Shown: piece by piece, positions 1,477 through 37,295 of the stretch
How the letters are laid out: the number at the start of each line of letters is the position of its first letter
Numbering within the stretch: the first letter of the stretch is position 1
Origin: a virus
Reading direction: 5' to 3' (one strand)
Virus record (IMG/VR): IMGVR_UViG_3300032322_001991
Span: 1 to 59,932 of that record
Length of the DNA stretch: 59,932 bases
Notes under the pieces: model-generated
The model's input: the letters and a program-made list of their open reading frames with translations, nothing else
Database searches by the model: none
Told to the model about the DNA's origin: nothing
Translations under genes and position numbers: made by a program

Positions 1477-1704
1477 ATGGACAACACTCCGAAGATACAA
1501 ATCACCCCCGATGGCAGCGGGGGCTACGCGATCCAGGCCGGCGAGCAGACGGCCCAGGCGGCCGACCTGGACCAGCTCCTGGACATGATTCGCGACATGC
1601 TCGGTGGCGAAGAGTCGGCCGAGGACAGCTGGGAGGCCGAGGCAGCCGACCGTGGCGATGACGGCTACCGGCGCCCGACAGCCGGGCCGATGCGAGCTCT
1701 CTGA
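1477..1704 (+). CDS. hypothetical acidic protein, first gene of rightward late operon
   Basis: Encodes 75 residues, strongly acidic in the second half (residues 30-62), with an Ile/Gly beta-like start. There is no clear Shine-Dalgarno site before the ATG, so the start is less certain than for its neighbours. It lies upstream of the packaging genes. No family is recognised. Confidence 0.6.
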   Translation: MDNTPKIQITPDGSGGYAIQAGEQTAQAADLDQLLDMIRDMLGGEESAEDSWEAEAADRGDDGYRRPTAGPMRAL

Positions 1705-1795
1705 GCCCGCGTGCCTGAGATAGGACCCGAACCTTCTTCCGTTTTCCCAGGTAAACAGGCACTGCAACCGCAGGCCAGACACAGTGAGGACACAC

Positions 1796-2002
1796 ATGGC
1801 ATCGCAAACGTACGCAACCGCCCCTTCCCGCAATCCCCATGTCGCGGCCGAGGGTTTCGGCAGTGGCGCAAAGCCGGGCAAGGTGCCTGCGCCCGTGGGC
1901 GGCCAGGTCATGGGCAAGGCCCCGGCCAACGCAGACGGCGCCAAGGCCGGCACGCCGCGGGGTTTCGGCGGTGGCTTGATCGATGGCAAGGTCAAGGTCT
2001 AA
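1796..2002 (+). CDS. hypothetical Gly/Lys-rich small protein
   Basis: Encodes 68 residues from the ATG at 1796, with GAGG six bases upstream. A GTG four codons earlier (1784) has no ribosome site. The protein is basic and low in complexity (Gly, Ala, Pro, Lys) with little predicted fold, as in small phage proteins that bind nucleic acid or virion parts. Bases 2003-2155 downstream are GC-rich with runs of C and G and no recognisable gene. Confidence 0.6.
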   Translation: MASQTYATAPSRNPHVAAEGFGSGAKPGKVPAPVGGQVMGKAPANADGAKAGTPRGFGGGLIDGKVKV

Positions 2003-2155
2003 CGAGAAAATGACCCCCCTCCCCCCTGTTCGATCGGGGCTGGCGGGTGGTTTCGGCCCCCCTATGCCCCCGCTTTGGGTCCCCGGCGCGCGGGTCCCAT
2101 CCACTATGGGGGTGTGGCTCGGTCACAACACTCCGGAACTTACTTCGGGGGCCTC

Positions 2156-2611
2156 ATGAGCGACATCGAGAACCGGCGCCGGCAGGGCTTTGCTGAGCTC
2201 GCGGGCGATGTCCCTCGCGAGTCGCGGCCGGAGGTCGATGGGTTCGAGCACATGTACGAGCCCCAGATCCGCCGGCCCAACAGGCAGGGCAAGCTCAACC
2301 TGCGGGCCGTTGTCGACGTGCTCGACAGCTACGGCCTGGACCCGATCGAAGAGCTGGCCAAGGTCCTCGTGGACAAGGAGCCGGCCCGGTCTCGCGATGG
2401 CGCACCGATCATCGACCCCGCGACGGGGCAGCCGGTGATGAAGCCGAAGCTCGACATCGAGACGCACGTCAAGCTGCTGACGGAGCTGGCCCAGTACACG
2501 CGGCCGAAGCTGAAGGCGGTGGAGATCACGAACAAGACGCCCGAGCTCAGTGACGAGCAGATCGAGCGTCGGCTGCAGGCGCTCATGGACCGGAATAAGG
2601 GAGCCAAGTGA
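2156..2611 (+). CDS. putative terminase small subunit
   Basis: Encodes 151 residues from the ATG at 2156, after a run of G. The middle has a helical segment ending in a YTRPKLKAVE motif (about residues 116-125). This resembles the Y-x-(H/R)-P-K-L-K-x-(V/I)-E stretch seen in phage small terminase or TerS-like proteins. It is followed by a charged C-terminal helix with DEQIERRLQAL. It sits two genes before the large terminase, the usual TerS position. TerS recognises packaging sites and regulates the ATPase. The call rests on position and one motif. Confidence 0.55.
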   Translation: MSDIENRRRQGFAELAGDVPRESRPEVDGFEHMYEPQIRRPNRQGKLNLRAVVDVLDSYGLDPIEELAKVLVDKEPARSRDGAPIIDPATGQPVMKPKLDIETHVKLLTELAQYTRPKLKAVEITNKTPELSDEQIERRLQALMDRNKGAK

Positions 2612-2871
2612 TGGAAACGATCAAGAAGCTCTGGGATTACGCGTGCATCACGTGGCTGTCCCTGACGCCCAAGGCGCAGATCACGGTCCTCGTGGCCTTG
2701 TTCATCATGTTCTTCGCAGGCGCCGTGCTGGCCCAGGGCAAGACCTGGCAAGTGCTGGAGCACGCGTGTGACAAGTCCGGCGCCGTGAACACGCTGGTCA
2801 TCGCCGTGGCCGAGCCCGGCTTCGTGCAGATCAGCTGGGATAACGCCCACGTCTGCGGCAAGGCGTCGTGA
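2611..2871 (+). CDS. small single-pass membrane protein
   Basis: Encodes 86 residues. Its ATG overlaps the previous stop (TGATG) and AAGGGAG lies seven bases upstream. One hydrophobic segment at about residues 24-41 is followed by a short domain with two Cys (about residues 52 and 81) that could form a disulfide outside the membrane. Its GTGA overlap with the terminase start suggests translational coupling. Function is unknown. Confidence 0.65.
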   Translation: METIKKLWDYACITWLSLTPKAQITVLVALFIMFFAGAVLAQGKTWQVLEHACDKSGAVNTLVIAVAEPGFVQISWDNAHVCGKAS

Positions 2872-5800
2872 CCGACCTGGCGTCACTGTCCACAGAGGAG
2901 AAGCTGGAACTTCTTCAGCTTCTGGAGATCCGCGACCGTCGCCAGCGCGAGAACATGCTGGCGTCGTACAAGCCGTACGCCAAGCAGAAGGAATTCCACA
3001 ACGCAGGCGCCACGTACCGTGAACGCCTGTTCATGGCTGCTAATCAGTGCTCAGGCCCGTGGACGTGGGTTGAAACGCCGGGCTCCAAGGCCCTGTCCGT
3101 AGATACGTTTTTCGAGCCAGGTGCACGTGTTCAAGCGTGGGACGGTGAATCTCGATGTGTCGCTCCAGTGCGGCACGGATATCTGAAGGGCATTGAGAAA
3201 GCGTATCGTCTGGTCCTGGAGACGGGAGAGTTCTTTGACGTGACGGCCAGTCACCAAGTGCTGACCGAACAAGGCTGGCTTTCGGTTTCCCGGATAGTGT
3301 CGCTTTCAAGTGGTCTGCGTTGCTGGCAAACAACCGAAGATTTTCTGGCCAGTTGTGTTGCGGGTGGCCGTCTACATGATCCACGACTTCCGCTGGATCC
3401 AGGTAGCGACCCAGCACGACTTCTAGAACGAGTCGGTGCTCGGGAACGTAGCCTGTGCTTCTCGCTTGAGGATGCAGAGGCGCGTACACGCTCACATACC
3501 AGCCTTTTGTCAGACAACGTCCTCCACCCCAACGCTGGCTGTGACCCGCGCCAGATCGAGGCCCTGTGCGCGCAGTTCGCAGGCCCAGCGATGAGCAGTA
3601 GCGTTCTACCGTTGACCGGTGAACACCAAGCCTTCTTGCAACTTGCTCGTGTGTCTCACCTTCTTCCTCAATCAGGCGACGAACCTCGTCTCCTTTCTCT
3701 ACCAGCAGACGTCCTGGTAGGAATTGTGGCTGGATGTTTCTCCTCTGAAGAAAAGACTGCACTACGTGAGTTTTCAGACCGAGTCGCTCGGCTATCTCTT
3801 GACGTGTCAGGCCCTGGGAGTTCCATTGAAGAACTTGGTCAAGATGCGGCTCGACTAGGGACGTTCTACCCATTTGATGGTCCTCGGCTGGTTGGTGGGA
3901 GGACGATCACTGCCGTCGTCCCGATTGGTTACCAGCCGATTCTAGACTGTCATGTGGACAGGGTCAATTGCTATTGGGCAGGCGGGGTGGTGCATCACAA
4001 CAGCGGCAAGACGCTATCTGCTGCATACGAGATCGCGATCCACGCCACCGGCCGCTACCCAGACTGGTGGCAAGGCCGTCGGTTCCATCGCCCGGTCAGC
4101 ATCCTCGTCGGCTCGGAGTCGGGCGAACTGACCCGCAAGGGCCTGCAGCGCCTGATCGTGGGCTCGCCCCAGAAGCGGGAAGAGTGGGGCACTGGTGCGA
4201 TTCCTAAGGAGTGCCTGGGCAACACGACGATGAAGCCCGGCGTGCCTGACGCGCTGGCCAGCGTGACTGTCAAGAACGAGTACGGCGGAGAGTCCGTCAT
4301 CCAGTTCAACAGTTATGACCAAGGGCGCATGCAGCACGTTGATAGCCGGGTGCTGACCCCCACCGGCTGGAAACGAATCGGAGACATTCAGCCGGGCGAC
4401 GAAGTCATCACTGTCGACGGTTCAGCGACGCGTGTGCTCGGCGTATTCCCTCACGGCGTCAAAGACCTGTACGAACTCACGTTTGATTCGGGGATCAAAA
4501 CCCTAGCTGGTGCCGAGCACCTGTGGCGTGTTGGAGAGCGCACCCGCGGCCCGTGGAGAACGGTCGAGACGGCCGAGCTCATCCATCGCTACGGGGACAC
4601 TGGCGAAAGGATCAACAGCAACGACCAGGTGTCGATTCCGCACGTCGCTCCCGTTCAGTTCCCAGCCAAGCCAGTTCCGCTTGACCCGTACTTGGTCGGA
4701 GCGCTTTTGGGGGACGGTTGCGTTCGCCAGAATCGCGTGCGTTTTACGTCAAAAGATGAGCAGGTCGTGGCAGAGGTCGCAGCCGGAGCGTTTAAATCTG
4801 GCGCTCAAATTGCTCGATGGGGCGATATTCAATATGGGTTCAGGGACTCTCAAGGCATTCGAGAAGCCTTAAAAGACCTGGGCCTGGCGGACCTTGGCGC
4901 GCTGGAGAAACGAGTTCCTCACGACTACTTGTGGAACGAGCCTGAGGTTCGGTTTGCAGTTCTTCAAGGGCTGATGGACACGGACGGCTCAGTGTCTGTT
5001 AAGGGCACCATGTCGTTTTCTACGACCTCGCGTGGCCTGGCCGAGGACGTGTCCTTCCTTGTGCGGTCGTTCGGCGGAAAAGCCATTTTGCGCAGCAAGG
5101 GGCAAAAGAACCGCAACAACGAGCTGTTCCTCGTGTCCATTCGGATGCCGGGGCCTCCACCGTTCAGGCTTCAGAGAAAGCTAGACCGCTGCATAAGGCC
5201 GGAATCAGAAACGCACCGGCATCTTCTCCGGACAATCAAGAGGGTTGAGCCTGGCGAGGCGGTTTGCATTGCAGTTGAGCACCCGTCTCATCTGTACGTC
5301 ACCGATGATTTCATCGTCACCCACAACACCAAGTGGCAGGCGGACACGATCGATATCGTTGCGATGGACGAAGAGCCTCCGATGGATATCTACACGGAGG
5401 CGCTGACCCGGACCAACGCGACGGGCGGTATCGTCTTCGTCACGTTCACCCCGCTGCTGGGCATGTCCCAGGTGGTCAAGCGCTACCTGACGGAGAAGCC
5501 CGAGGGTACGACCGTCATCCGCATGACGATCGACGATGCGGAGCACTACACCCCCGAGGAGCGTGCGCGGATCATCGCCGCCTACCCTGAGCACGAGCGG
5601 GAGGCCCGGACGAAGGGCATCCCGATGCTTGGCAGCGGCGCGGTGTTCCCCGTGGCCGAGTCCGCGATCAGCGTGGCACCGTTCGAGATCCCCGCCCATT
5701 GGGCACGGATCAACGGGATCGACTTCGGCTGGGACCACCCGACTGGCTTCGTCTGCATGGCCCACGACAGGGACACGGACACGGTCTACGTGTACGACGC

Positions 5801-6299
5801 CTGGAAGCTGAAGCAGACCCCCGTCATGACTCAGGCCGGGATGGTCGTAGGCAAGGGGTACCAGAACATACCCTGGGCCTGGCCGCATGACGGCCTCCAG
5901 CATGACAAGGGGTCTGGCGAAGTCCTGAAGGACCAGTACCAGAAGTTCGGCATGAACATGCTCTCGGAGAGGGCCCAGTTCGAGAACCGTCCTGACGGGA
6001 AGCCGGGTGGCAACAGCCTTGAGGCTGGTGTATCGATGATGCTGGAGAGAATGCAAACACGCAGACTACGCGTGTTTTCCAACCTGGAGGACTGGTTCTC
6101 GGAGTTCCGGCTGTACCACCGGAAGGAAGGGATCATCGTCAAGGAGGACGACGACATTCTGTCCGCGACGCGCTACGGGATCATGATGCTGCGCAAGGCG
6201 AAGACCTTGCTGGAGATGGAACCGAGCCGTGGCACTTTCAACCGACCCGCTGCGAACCTGCCTGTTTTCCAGGTGTTCAACGCGGACTGTGCGTACTGA
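2868..6299 (+). CDS. terL: terminase large subunit precursor with two inteins
   Basis: DNA-packaging motor protein with an N-terminal ATPase and a C-terminal RNase H-like nuclease. The 1143-residue precursor would mature to 492 residues after removal of inteins at residues 61-378 and 488-820, a normal TerL length. Joining the exteins restores Walker A as AANQSGKT, the YDQGR-TKWQ segment, and Walker B as IVAMDEEPP. The nuclease half has GIDFGWDHPTG (first acidic residue), a WPHDG segment and a late EDDDILSATRYG segment. The start is GTG and overlaps the upstream stop. Both inteins interrupt the ATPase core, so splicing is required for activity. Intein 1 also contains an antisense gene. Confidence 0.95.
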   Translation: MTDLASLSTEEKLELLQLLEIRDRRQRENMLASYKPYAKQKEFHNAGATYRERLFMAANQCSGPWTWVETPGSKALSVDTFFEPGARVQAWDGESRCVAPVRHGYLKGIEKAYRLVLETGEFFDVTASHQVLTEQGWLSVSRIVSLSSGLRCWQTTEDFLASCVAGGRLHDPRLPLDPGSDPARLLERVGARERSLCFSLEDAEARTRSHTSLLSDNVLHPNAGCDPRQIEALCAQFAGPAMSSSVLPLTGEHQAFLQLARVSHLLPQSGDEPRLLSLPADVLVGIVAGCFSSEEKTALREFSDRVARLSLDVSGPGSSIEELGQDAARLGTFYPFDGPRLVGGRTITAVVPIGYQPILDCHVDRVNCYWAGGVVHHNSGKTLSAAYEIAIHATGRYPDWWQGRRFHRPVSILVGSESGELTRKGLQRLIVGSPQKREEWGTGAIPKECLGNTTMKPGVPDALASVTVKNEYGGESVIQFNSYDQGRMQHVDSRVLTPTGWKRIGDIQPGDEVITVDGSATRVLGVFPHGVKDLYELTFDSGIKTLAGAEHLWRVGERTRGPWRTVETAELIHRYGDTGERINSNDQVSIPHVAPVQFPAKPVPLDPYLVGALLGDGCVRQNRVRFTSKDEQVVAEVAAGAFKSGAQIARWGDIQYGFRDSQGIREALKDLGLADLGALEKRVPHDYLWNEPEVRFAVLQGLMDTDGSVSVKGTMSFSTTSRGLAEDVSFLVRSFGGKAILRSKGQKNRNNELFLVSIRMPGPPPFRLQRKLDRCIRPESETHRHLLRTIKRVEPGEAVCIAVEHPSHLYVTDDFIVTHNTKWQADTIDIVAMDEEPPMDIYTEALTRTNATGGIVFVTFTPLLGMSQVVKRYLTEKPEGTTVIRMTIDDAEHYTPEERARIIAAYPEHEREARTKGIPMLGSGAVFPVAESAISVAPFEIPAHWARINGIDFGWDHPTGFVCMAHDRDTDTVYVYDAWKLKQTPVMTQAGMVVGKGYQNIPWAWPHDGLQHDKGSGEVLKDQYQKFGMNMLSERAQFENRPDGKPGGNSLEAGVSMMLERMQTRRLRVFSNLEDWFSEFRLYHRKEGIIVKEDDDILSATRYGIMMLRKAKTLLEMEPSRGTFNRPAANLPVFQVFNADCAY
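3040..3873 (-). CDS. HTH-HTH-HNH homing endonuclease encoded antisense inside TerL intein 1
   Basis: Encodes 277 residues from the ATG at 3873, with GAGG (3882-3885 on the plus strand) eight bases upstream and a near-consensus promoter at 3939-3967. Two helix-turn-helix units lie at about residues 21-47 and 72-98. An HNH nuclease core at about 125-196 includes EHRLVLE (145-151), VVDHVDG (163-169), N174, PENL (176-179) and SNADH (184-188). This resembles HNH proteins of phages that combine DNA-recognition modules with a cleavage domain. The recognisable protein spans only the intein region between splicing blocks B and F. Residues after about 200 are the reverse of blocks A and B and look unconserved. 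Its TAG stop lies eight bases outside the intein, in extein DNA. Expected role: cutting intein-free terL alleles. Confidence 0.85.
   Translation of the reverse strand: MGRTSLVEPHLDQVLQWNSQGLTRQEIAERLGLKTHVVQSFLQRRNIQPQFLPGRLLVEKGDEVRRLIEEEGETHEQVARRLGVHRSTVERYCSSLGLRTARTGPRSGAGHSQRWGGGRCLTKGWYVSVYAPLHPQARSTGYVPEHRLVLEVVLGRYLDPAEVVDHVDGHPQHNWPENLRLFASNADHLKATLSGKPKASLVRSALGDWPSRQRTLPSPGPDDTLSQCPSDIRAALERHIEIHRPTLEHVHLARKTYLRTGPWSPAFQPTSTGLSTD
3048..4001 (+). mobile_element. TerL intein 1 (class 1) at Walker A
   Basis: A 318-residue intein (TerL residues 61-378). Cys61 starts block A. Block B contains T-A-S-H. Block F is DCHVDRVNCYWAGGVV, and the C-terminal His-His-Asn precedes Ser379. Excision rejoins ANQ to SGKT, the ATP-binding P-loop. 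The part between blocks B and F (about TerL residues 145-335) contains no endonuclease motif in this frame and reads as featureless Ser/Arg/Leu-rich linker. The opposite strand of this same part encodes a complete HNH endonuclease. Confidence 0.9.
3939..3967 (-). promoter_or_regulatory. antisense promoter for the intein-nested HNH gene
   Basis: On the minus strand, TTGACC (-35, 3962-3967) and TAGAAT (-10, 3939-3944) are separated by 17 bases, with five of six matches to sigma70 consensus at each box. The expected start is about 60 bases upstream of the HNH ATG at 3873. The element lies inside the plus-strand codons for intein block F, so one sequence serves protein splicing on one strand and promoter function on the other. 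Its spacer contains GACAGTC, seen in other promoter candidates here. Confidence 0.65.
4329..5327 (+). mobile_element. TerL intein 2 (class 3) with in-frame LAGLIDADG endonuclease
   Basis: A 333-residue intein (TerL residues 488-820) between YDQGR and TKWQ, just before Walker B. The first residue is Met, not Cys or Ser. Block A then reads DSRVLTPTGW. Class 3 inteins splice through a Trp-Cys-Thr set, and all three positions are visible: Trp in GAEHLW of block B, Cys in AVCIAVEH of block F, and Thr821 after the terminal His-Asn. Two LAGLIDADG-type motifs are in frame: LVGALLGDG and LQGLMDTDG. It appears to be a full, possibly active element. Confidence 0.9.
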
Positions 6300-6389
6300 A
6301 TCCGCTCGGTGGGGTGGAGACGCGAAGCCTTCGAGCGAATGGTGGCGTGGCGCCGGCCCGCGTAAGAAGGCAGCCGGCACCTGACAAAC

Positions 6390-8633
6390 ATGGACCAAGA
6401 CAAAGACGATGACGCAGTAGGACGCGAGGCCGCTCGACAGGAGCGGCTGCAGGCGTTCGGCCGCTCGCTTGCGTCCATGCGCGACAAGTGGATCCGCTCC
6501 CGCGCCGCGACCGGTTGGGACAAGAGGATCGTCGAGTCGCTCGACCAGTACCACGGCAAGGACCCGGCGACGCGGATGGCTGCGTCGATGATGGAGTCGG
6601 TCTACCAGGGATACCCGGTCACCGTCCGCGAGGCCCTGCCGACGCGTTCGACGGTGTTCGTCGGTATCACCCGGCAGAAGACCAACAGCGCCGAGGCCCG
6701 GCTGGCTGACATCCTGCTGCCCACCGACGACCGCAACTGGGGCATCAAGCCGTCTCCGGACCCCGACCTGGCCAAGGCGATCACGGACGACGACGAGCTC
6801 GTCGACCCGGCCACGGGCGAGCCGATCTTGTTCGACATCCAGGGCAACGTCGTCGACAACCCTCAAGAAGGCCGCCCGGCGAAGAAGTCGCAGATCGCCC
6901 AGGCCGTTCAACAGGTGGCTAGGCAGGCCGCCGACGCGATGCTGATGGAGATCGACGACCAGCTGGTCGAGTGCGACTACAACGGCGAGATCCGCAAGGT
7001 GATCCACGACGCTGCCGTGATGGGCACGGGCGTGATCAAGGGTCCGATGGTGACCCGAAGGACGCGCAAGGCCTGGCGGCAGAAGAAGGATCCGGTCACT
7101 GGCGAGAAGATGTACGTGATGGAGATCGTGGACGAGCTCCGCCCGGCCTCGTTCCGCGTCGACCCGCGCTTCGTCTGGGAGGACCCGACCTGCGGTGACG
7201 ACGTGAAGAAGGGCCGCGGTGTGTTCGAGCTGGCCGAGATCAACGACAAGCAGGTCCGAGACCTGGCCAAGCAGCCCGGGTACATCAAGGCCCAGCTGCG
7301 AGAGGTCATCGAGCAGGGGCCGATGCGAAGCGCTGCCCTGTACGAGATCCAGCGCACGGAGATCGACAAGAACAACAGCGAGGACGGGAAGAGCTTCCAG
7401 CACTGGATCTACTGGGGCGACCTCGACCGGAAGGACCTGGCCGCGGCTGGGGTCGAGGTGGGCGACGAAGACGACCCGCTCCTGTCGATCAGCGGGTGCG
7501 TGGAGATGATCAACGACGTCGTCGTCCGCGCGTACCTGAACCCCCTCGAAGACGGGTCGATCCCGTACGACTTCTACCCCTGGGAGAAGGTCACCAGCTC
7601 AGCCCGCGGGTACGGCATTCCGTACCTGATGAAGTCCCAGCAGAGCGTGACCAACTCCGCTTGGCGGATGCTGATGGACAACCTGGGCGTCACCTCGGGC
7701 CCTCAGATCGTGGTCAAGCGTGGCGCCGTGACGCCGGCCGACGGTCAGTGGACGCTGACCCCTCGCAAGTTCTGGTACCTGACAGACGACTCGATCGACG
7801 TCAACAAGGTCTTCGCCTCGTTCCAGTTCGAGAACCATCAGGCGCAGCTGGCCGCGGTGATCGAGATGGCCGAGAAGATCGTCGACCAGGAGACGGCCAC
7901 GCCGATGATGGCCCAGGGCCAGCAGGGCTCCGCTCCGGAGACGGTTGGCGGGATGCAGCTGCTGATGAACGGCGCCAACGTGGTCCTGCGCCGGCTGGTC
8001 AAGCAGTTCGACGACTACGTCACGAAGCCCCACATCCGTCGCTACTACGACTACAACATGGCGTACAGCGAGAAGGACGAGATCAAGGGCGACTTCCAGA
8101 TCGACGCACGTGGATCGAGCGCATTGATCATCCGTGACATCCAGAACCAGGCCTTCACGAATCTGTTGGCGATTGGTGGCAATCCTGCATATGCGGAGAT
8201 GATTGACAGGAAGAAGTTGTTCGAGAAGGCGCTTCGTGCTCAGCAGATCGACCCTCGGGACGTGATGCTGACCGACGAGCAGATCGAAGAGAACCGCAAG
8301 GCCAACCCGCCTCAGCCGGATCCGAGGATCGCAGCGGCCCAGATCAACGCCGAGGCCAGGATGATGGAGGCCCAGGCGGTGGCCGCCGGCCGCGCTGCCG
8401 AGACCGAGGCCCGCACCGAGAGCGAGGTCGAGAACCGGCGCCTGCGGATGCTGGAGCTGCAGCTCAAGCACGACCTGGCGGTGATGCAGATGGCCACTCA
8501 GCAGCAGATCACCGTGCAGCAGGTCAAAGCCCAGCTGGCCCAGACGGCGCTGCACGACAGGACCAAGAAAGAACTCGCGGCGAGCGAGATGATCTTCAAA
8601 GAGAAGGACAGCCCTGACGGGCAGGGAATCTGA
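6390..8633 (+). CDS. portal protein
   Basis: The 747-residue portal forms the dodecameric ring through which DNA is packaged and to which the tail attaches. It has the podovirus (P22-like) pattern: an acidic helical N-terminus, a central alpha/beta wing and stem with FYPWEKVTSSARGYGIPYLM, and a long C-terminal helical barrel rich in Ala, Gln and Glu (about residues 620-735). It directly follows the terminase and precedes the scaffold and capsid genes. Bases 6300-6389 before it hold no gene. Confidence 0.85.
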   Translation: MDQDKDDDAVGREAARQERLQAFGRSLASMRDKWIRSRAATGWDKRIVESLDQYHGKDPATRMAASMMESVYQGYPVTVREALPTRSTVFVGITRQKTNSAEARLADILLPTDDRNWGIKPSPDPDLAKAITDDDELVDPATGEPILFDIQGNVVDNPQEGRPAKKSQIAQAVQQVARQAADAMLMEIDDQLVECDYNGEIRKVIHDAAVMGTGVIKGPMVTRRTRKAWRQKKDPVTGEKMYVMEIVDELRPASFRVDPRFVWEDPTCGDDVKKGRGVFELAEINDKQVRDLAKQPGYIKAQLREVIEQGPMRSAALYEIQRTEIDKNNSEDGKSFQHWIYWGDLDRKDLAAAGVEVGDEDDPLLSISGCVEMINDVVVRAYLNPLEDGSIPYDFYPWEKVTSSARGYGIPYLMKSQQSVTNSAWRMLMDNLGVTSGPQIVVKRGAVTPADGQWTLTPRKFWYLTDDSIDVNKVFASFQFENHQAQLAAVIEMAEKIVDQETATPMMAQGQQGSAPETVGGMQLLMNGANVVLRRLVKQFDDYVTKPHIRRYYDYNMAYSEKDEIKGDFQIDARGSSALIIRDIQNQAFTNLLAIGGNPAYAEMIDRKKLFEKALRAQQIDPRDVMLTDEQIEENRKANPPQPDPRIAAAQINAEARMMEAQAVAAGRAAETEARTESEVENRRLRMLELQLKHDLAVMQMATQQQITVQQVKAQLAQTALHDRTKKELAASEMIFKEKDSPDGQGI

Positions 8634-36278: not shown

Positions 36279-37295
36279 ATGGCCACCTTCGATCAGCGCC
36301 CGAACGGGAAGTGGCGGGCCCAGATCCGCCGGACCGGCTTCGCGGCGAAGGCAAAGACCTTCCGCACCAAGGCCGAGGCCGAGAAGTGGGCCAGGTCCCT
36401 GGAGACCCAGCTCGACAAGGGGTTCGAGATCGACGTCTCGGAGATGCGCAAGACCCGGGTCTGCGACATCCTGAACCAGTTTCTAGAGAAGAAGGTCCCC
36501 TACCGCAAGGGCGGCAAGTGGGAGACCGTGCGGATCAACATGATGCTGCGCGAGCCCTTCGCATCCCAGCGTCTGGACCAGCATCTATCGAACGCTATCT
36601 CCGGCTGGATAGACGATCGGATGAAGGTCTGCTCCGCGGCCACCGTCAACCGCGACCTGAACCTGCTCTCGTCCGTGTTCACGTTCGCGATCCGCGAAAT
36701 GCGAATACCGCTGCCGGTCAACCCGGTCCACAACGTCAAGCGGCCCAAGGTCGACGACAAGAGCCGGGGCAAGATCTGGTCCGAGGCAGACCTGGAGAAG
36801 CTGCGCGCTGCAGCGGCAGCCGAGCGTCACCGCGAGGGGACGACCTACGACTACGTCGTGCCCGCGGTCGAGCTCGCGCTGGCCACGGCCATGCGGCTGG
36901 GCGAGGTCTGCTCTCTGACCGTGGGCAACGTCCACCTGGACGAGCGCTACGCGTACCTGGCCGAGACCAAGAACGGAGACAGCCGCGAGGTGCCCCTGCC
37001 CACGCGTGCGCTCAAGGTGCTGCAGCCGCTGATCCAGGCCGCGAAGGACGCGGGCCGCGAGGATCTTTTCCCCGTTGGGAAGGACGTCCTCGGGCTACGA
37101 TTCCGCCAGCTGCGCGCCAAGGCGGGGCTGGGCGACCTGCGGTTCCACGACACCCGGCACACCGCCGCGACTCGCGCGAGCAAGGTCCTGCACAACGTGC
37201 TGGAACTCGCTGCCTTCACCGGCCACCGCAGCCTGAAGTCCCTCCAGCGGTACTACCACGCCGACGCCAGCGAGCTGGCCCGCAGGCTCGGGTAG
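36279..37295 (+). CDS. int: tyrosine recombinase (phage integrase)
   Basis: The 338-residue site-specific recombinase should integrate and excise the phage genome. The N-terminal arm-binding domain (about 1-50: FDQRPNGKWRAQIRRTGF) is followed by a core-binding SAM-like domain (about 60-150) and the catalytic domain. Catalytic residues visible are Arg206 (AMRLGEV), Lys231, His290 and Arg293 (HDTRHT), His316 (GHRS) and the nucleophile Tyr325 or Tyr326. All are present, so it should be active. It marks the phage as temperate. The excisionase-like gene lies close by on the other strand. Confidence 0.9.
   Translation: MATFDQRPNGKWRAQIRRTGFAAKAKTFRTKAEAEKWARSLETQLDKGFEIDVSEMRKTRVCDILNQFLEKKVPYRKGGKWETVRINMMLREPFASQRLDQHLSNAISGWIDDRMKVCSAATVNRDLNLLSSVFTFAIREMRIPLPVNPVHNVKRPKVDDKSRGKIWSEADLEKLRAAAAAERHREGTTYDYVVPAVELALATAMRLGEVCSLTVGNVHLDERYAYLAETKNGDSREVPLPTRALKVLQPLIQAAKDAGREDLFPVGKDVLGLRFRQLRAKAGLGDLRFHDTRHTAATRASKVLHNVLELAAFTGHRSLKSLQRYYHADASELARRLG

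Follow-up and report, generated by a model that had tools for sequence, protein, structure and literature searches.

Does a nuclease gene that runs antisense through an intein carry a promoter of its own, written into codons that also have to specify the splicing domain? This question is raised by the terL locus of the 59,932-nucleotide viral stretch analysed here, to which we refer at its full length as the window (IMG/VR record IMGVR_UViG_3300032322_001991). Its terL frame includes two inteins, the first of which is overlapped on the opposite strand by an HNH gene (Table 1). An earlier note, made from the letters alone, had proposed that a near-consensus sigma70 promoter for this antisense gene sits inside block F of the intein.

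Table 1. Coordinates in the window of terL, its inteins, the antisense HNH gene and the associated signals
Feature	Position	Strand	Remarks
terL with two inteins	2868..6299	+	Pfam Terminase_6N and 6C
Intein 1, 318 aa	3048..4001	+	Within the TerL Walker A motif, AANQ / SGKT; Hint halves 1-93 and 271-318
Antisense HNH gene, 277 aa	3040..3873	-	Two HTH-like repeats, then HNH nuclease domain
Shine-Dalgarno-like GAGG	3882..3885	-	8 nt before the HNH ATG
Decayed counterpart of putative promoter P2	3906..3934	-	-10 box 90 nt from the Asn codon; window score 0.4, p=0.77
Intein 1 block F region, PILDCHVDRVNC	3936..3971	+	Bases shared with P1; Asp nearly invariant in 42 inteins
Sigma70-like putative promoter P1	3939..3967	-	-35 TTGACC 3967-3962, 17 nt, -10 TAGAAT 3944-3939; expected start near 3932
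Intein 2	4329..5327	+	LAGLIDADG domain, sense strand; internal control: no antisense promoter signal
Tyrosine integrase	36279..37295	+	Suggests a temperate phage

Sequence motifs and structure modelling identify intein 1 as an intein that is predicted to splice: it possesses a nucleophilic residue of the Cys/Ser type, the block B His, block F, the terminal His-Asn pair and the Hint fold. Within its family C1, H69, H317 and N318 are invariant and D300 is nearly so (42 inteins), and the N-terminal Cys is present in 44 of 45 aligned inteins; in the related locus L043 the intein start was not placed. Residues 1-90 and 271-318, which make up the Hint fold, were modelled at block pLDDT 79-97, and the best PDB matches of intein 1 are inteins. 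The middle of the polypeptide, residues 91-270, was poorly modelled (block pLDDT 36-71). A Pfam scan of terL detected no endonuclease domain in the intein 1 polypeptide, LAGLIDADG being found in intein 2 only. A group I intron around the HNH gene was considered and rejected, as no Rfam match was obtained in window positions 2500-6600 at E values up to 1 and the intein frame is open. Intein 2 begins with Met, not with Cys or Ser; the related locus L002 has an empty intein 2 site, DQGR/SKWQAD, and intein 2 of L108 has a like start, MQRVDS. In L006, terL downstream of the intein is interrupted by ~500 nt with small frames, after which the nuclease domain resumes.

The antisense nuclease gene assumed by the earlier note proved to be real and conserved at the sequence level, as judged from domain matches, selection on its frame and the existence of relatives. 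Its product matches Pfam HTH_23 and HNH_3 over the cut-off as well as PHROG HNH families, and the structure model contains an ordered HTH and HNH. Similarity to I-HmuI (1u3e) is weak in sequence (E 0.1) and extends over 76 residues in fold (Z 5.0, 3.1 A), in a structure-match list that is dominated by HTH and from which the absence of other folds carries no meaning. The HNH stop codon of the window lies in the N-extein of terL, just past the intein border (3040-3047), and would depend on the insertion site since it is supplied by terL codons; wherever else the intein start could be placed (43 loci), the gene stops within the intein, 7 to 223 nt short of the border.

Scans with the HNH protein yielded loci from viral contigs, bacterial genomes and cultured phages; in one of these scans 278 of 406 candidate stretches were relatives, and the best 80 of the 278 were kept. 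Altogether 108 sequences were examined, 107 of which had a forward HNH match, the remaining one (L001) being the window in opposite orientation; by reading of the lists, about 11 of the 107 loci repeat contigs already counted, so that distinct records number ~96. A long open frame lies opposite the HNH match in all 107 loci. This frame includes an HN(S/T/C) intein end in 90 of them and lacks it in 17, two of which were read (L064 and L066) and end in KN/SGKT. Nearly all of the loci seen have terL as their host gene. L087 carries the same antisense-HNH intein at 1640-3910 in a helicase-like P-loop gene (WCHN/TGLGKS), not in terL. Cultured examples whose antisense frames were read are Pseudoalteromonas phage PHS3 and Pectobacterium phage Sabo, and nine records, PHS3 included, are listed with at least 80% of the PHS3 HNH; L097 and L098 are relatives in bacterial chromosomes. 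In the deposited PHS3 annotation (KX912252; L016, L188) the HNH gene is called and terL is shortened, which indicates that the overlap is easily missed. In that of Sabo (PQ008974; L015) the long frame is labelled "hypothetical" and the HNH gene is missed. Seven loci without an unbroken HNH frame over the alignment (L023, L025, L026, L027, L028, L032 and L107) were excluded from the 100-locus counts; translated, L025, L028 and L032 have a stop only near the alignment end, L023 and L107 have internal stops in the HNH frame with the intein frame still open, and the upstream DNA of L026 and L027 is that of L025.

HNH and intein frames stand in a single relative phase in all 100 loci scored. Over the same bases, HNH identity exceeded intein-frame identity in 30 of 30 pairs (means 0.69 vs 0.49), these being one pair per cluster combination from 153 pairs in the identity range. 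This implies that the HNH protein matters. Differences at positions 1, 2 and 3 of the HNH codons numbered 1640, 1439 and 2820, an excess at third positions. Furthermore, the intein frames of 47 cluster representatives contain no stop, compared with 300.5 expected when HNH codons were shuffled synonymously. Altogether, these comparisons indicate that both frames are under selection. Since the intein frame is free of stops, the Hint ends are conserved and the part between them is poorly modelled, this middle stretch, which lies opposite the HNH gene, resembles a passive linker whose only requirement is to stay open.

The boxes described in the earlier note are present exactly on the minus strand of the window, matching the consensus at 5 of 6 bases each with N17 spacing, and codon reading affirmed that they overlap block F here. 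From the last base of the -10 box to the HNH ATG (3873) the distance is 65 nt, and the expected start would give a leader of ~59 nt. Only three places on both strands of the 59,932-base window, P1 included, match at least 10 of 12 consensus bases at 16-18 nt spacing, at a window GC content of 64.5%; the exact pattern TTGACC-N17-TAGAAT occurs once in the window and in none of 100 shuffles. Under nulls that keep the intein protein, the promoter score of the window gave p=0.11 when its own synonymous codons were permuted and p=0.017 when codon usage was resampled. Compared to control windows p was 0.019, none of the 51 other antisense windows of the frame scoring as high, and a null specific for the P1 site gave p=0.012. 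The sense codons over P1 read ATT CTA GAC TGT CAT GTG GAC AGG GTC AAT and include the rare CTA, a codon used for 3.1% of the leucines encoded by 11 window genes. Taken alone, the window site provides moderate evidence for a promoter. Elsewhere in the window, two 52-nt direct repeats (85%) at 367-418 and 1229-1280 hold TTGGCC-17-GATAAT on the minus strand and precede small minus-strand frames; they are possible phage promoters.

Across the family, the 200 nt before the HNH start were scored in 47 clusters formed at 75% nucleotide identity, using a matrix for E. coli sigma70, which may not be that of the host. Scores at p<0.05 were obtained for 15/47 clusters upon permutation of their own synonymous codons (Fisher 8e-10), for 22/47 upon resampling of codons from the gene (Fisher 1e-16), and for 32/47 in comparison with other antisense windows of the same frame (Fisher 2e-16). 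Shine-Dalgarno matches were found in 37/47 clusters vs 18 expected, an excess that is biased upward because HNH start codons were picked partly by this match. A promoter test whose window was fixed relative to the end of the intein is free of this choice of start, and gave 3/45 clusters by permutation (combined p 2e-6) and 22/45 by usage (5e-19). On the sense strand of the same fixed window 0/45 (permutation) and 3/45 (usage) clusters reached p<0.05, and for control inteins with a sense-strand endonuclease these numbers were 1/32 and 0/32. The control set comprised 58 regions from 80 loci plus intein 2 of the window, resulting in 32 clusters with apparent near-duplicates left out. Family and control inteins differed at p=4e-8 (permutation) and 8e-10 (usage). 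The clusters share ancestry; upon coarser clustering into 8 HNH clusters the signal was weaker and still there (Fisher 0.036 by permutation, 5e-6 by usage). Some lineages have no convincing site: L051, L085 and L041 score <6, and L015, the Pectobacterium phage, scores 7. At the family level, sigma70-type -35/-10 hexamers at 16-18 nt spacing occur above chance, with p values from 0.012 to 0.11 for the window alone, which supports the view that the HNH gene has its own promoter-like element inside the intein. The architecture, the selection on two frames and the antisense-specific promoter-like boxes are established for these inteins from their nucleotide sequences.

The position of the boxes varies among lineages. 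Most clusters have the -10 box at a distance of 84-119 nt from the Asn codon of the intein; relative to the HNH start it is frequently 26-35 nt upstream. The boxes read TTGACA-17-GATAAT in L016 (PHS3), TTGACA-17-TAGAAT in L069 and TTGACT-17-TATAAT in L007, there 47 nt before the HNH start. A -10 box at block F, 57 nt from the Asn codon, is found in the window (site p 0.012), L006 (0.05) and L029 (0.047), and at 55 nt in L030; weaker shifted sites are those of L019 (p 0.02) and L030 (p 0.017). The idea that homologous inteins with an HNH gene keep the boxes holds for the window and a few relatives, whereas the exact boxes are lost in most relatives that retain the HNH frame, an outcome which the earlier note had named as refuting, and block F as a general promoter is ruled out by the other box positions in most lineages. 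P2, the site 90 nt from the Asn codon, reads TGGAAA-N17-TATAAT in L004 and L019 with TGC before the -10 box (extended -10). In the window, L006 and L029 this 90-nt site is lost and the block F score is good. A high score at one of the two sites goes with a low score at the other in the window's subfamily (rho -0.73, n=10, p=0.017), a correlation from which L023, L025, L028 and L032 and the more distant L088 and L096 were left out though scored. The block F box reads as a lineage-specific solution reached via promoter turnover, and in the window's lineage the putative promoter appears to have moved to block F, 33 nt farther from the HNH start than its earlier site.

We consider it likely that P1 is a host-type promoter of an autonomous antisense unit consisting of promoter, RBS and HNH gene, and that the HNH protein is the homing endonuclease of the intein. 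Intein 1 is missing from L108 and L109 (TerL 81% identical), which do carry intein 2; of the two inteins, L002 and L003 carry intein 1 only. Such patchy presence in close relatives is as expected of mobile inserts. The tyrosine integrase makes a prophage state plausible, and together with the relatives in bacterial chromosomes it renders expression of the HNH gene from a prophage possible. In the proposed mechanism the HNH gene would be expressed while terL is silent, in the prophage or early in infection, and its product would cleave, at the Walker A site, terL alleles that lack the intein. Repair would then copy the intein into the cut terL, and the intein would splice out of TerL afterwards. 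Promoter activity, timing, cutting and splicing are what we infer here, as is homing by the HNH protein, the latter by analogy.

In a window as GC-rich as this one long antisense frames are frequent, and the HNH frame might on this ground be taken for a spurious open frame over an ordinary intein. However, the Pfam and PHROG matches, the ordered HTH and HNH model, the greater conservation of the HNH frame in every pair and the deficit of intein-frame stops led us to reject this explanation, whose probability is practically nil. A different doubt concerns the boxes themselves, which could be a by-product of locally AT-richer DNA and of the protein sequence that the intein requires, with the real HNH gene driven from elsewhere. 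The outcome of own-codon permutation for the window is in keeping with this, as is the tendency of the block F codons for P-I-(I/L/V)-D toward AT-rich hexamers in relatives. Nevertheless, the usage and site-specific nulls and the use of the rare CTA codon argue against a by-product, and many relatives keep a site somewhere upstream of the HNH gene, whereas control inteins do not; this origin of the boxes appears unlikely.

Two further explanations accept the antisense unit and assign it another role. Its transcript would be antisense to terL and might mainly repress this gene by interference, the HNH protein being secondary; for the endonuclease genes of group I introns, interference of this kind has been discussed (PMC9548176). 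As the HNH frame is the better-conserved one, we regard this role as unlikely. The HNH protein might instead serve DNA packaging rather than homing, given that its host gene is nearly always terL and that phage HNH proteins are reported to be linked to packaging (PMC5304195). Yet the close relatives L108 and L109 do without the whole intein and its HNH gene, and L087 has the same arrangement outside terL, which makes a packaging function very unlikely. Returning to the homing endonuclease with its own promoter, one may conceive of a class of selfish inteins with an autonomous antisense homing endonuclease, whose promoter lies in splicing-domain codons and shifts among lineages; prophage expression would let lysogens cut incoming intein-free terL, and the transcript would also hold resident terL down. 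We offer this wider proposal tentatively, and in its full extent it is doubtful. If the homing reading is true, one DNA segment serves as splicing domain on one strand and as nuclease gene plus promoter on the other, and an intein in a late gene has its endonuclease expressed separately from the host gene. The arrangement also offers a clean measure of the synonymous codon choice spent on a second message.

In split inteins with free-standing endonuclease genes (fractured genes), intein and endonuclease are separate genes at one locus, whereas the endonuclease gene described here overlaps an intein that is unbroken. I-HmuI, which is intron-coded, is likewise an HNH homing endonuclease and its HNH region aligns at a modest Z; in contrast to I-HmuI, the HTH repeats of the window's HNH protein are N-terminal. 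Antisense endonuclease genes in group I introns (PMC9548176) and hidden out-of-frame HNH genes in a phage methylase (PMC11855218) are already known. In the literature searched (open-licence papers, partial coverage), no intein with an antisense endonuclease gene was found. The ShiLan domain is a hidden out-of-frame HNH in a phage methylase, and resembles our case in that an HNH gene overlaps the open frame of its host gene in phages; it differs in using another forward frame and in that no intein or intron was detected, and the words "promoter" and "antisense" are absent from the main text of that paper (PMC11855218). The group I intron Dsq.L2066 shares with our element an antisense endonuclease gene within a self-splicing element, and a potential internal promoter of a related intron is mentioned (PMC9548176). 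Elements of the Dsq.L2066 type, according to the same source, are RNA introns of myxomycete rDNA with the gene in a peripheral segment, whereas here protein splicing forces both strands to be read. The TerL inteins of mycobacteriophages are mobile inteins with an in-frame homing endonuclease (PMC5050341); like intein 1 they lie in the terminase ATPase domain, keep their splicing residues and are patchily distributed, whereas in the inteins described here the endonuclease is a separate gene on the opposite strand, outside the intein polypeptide.
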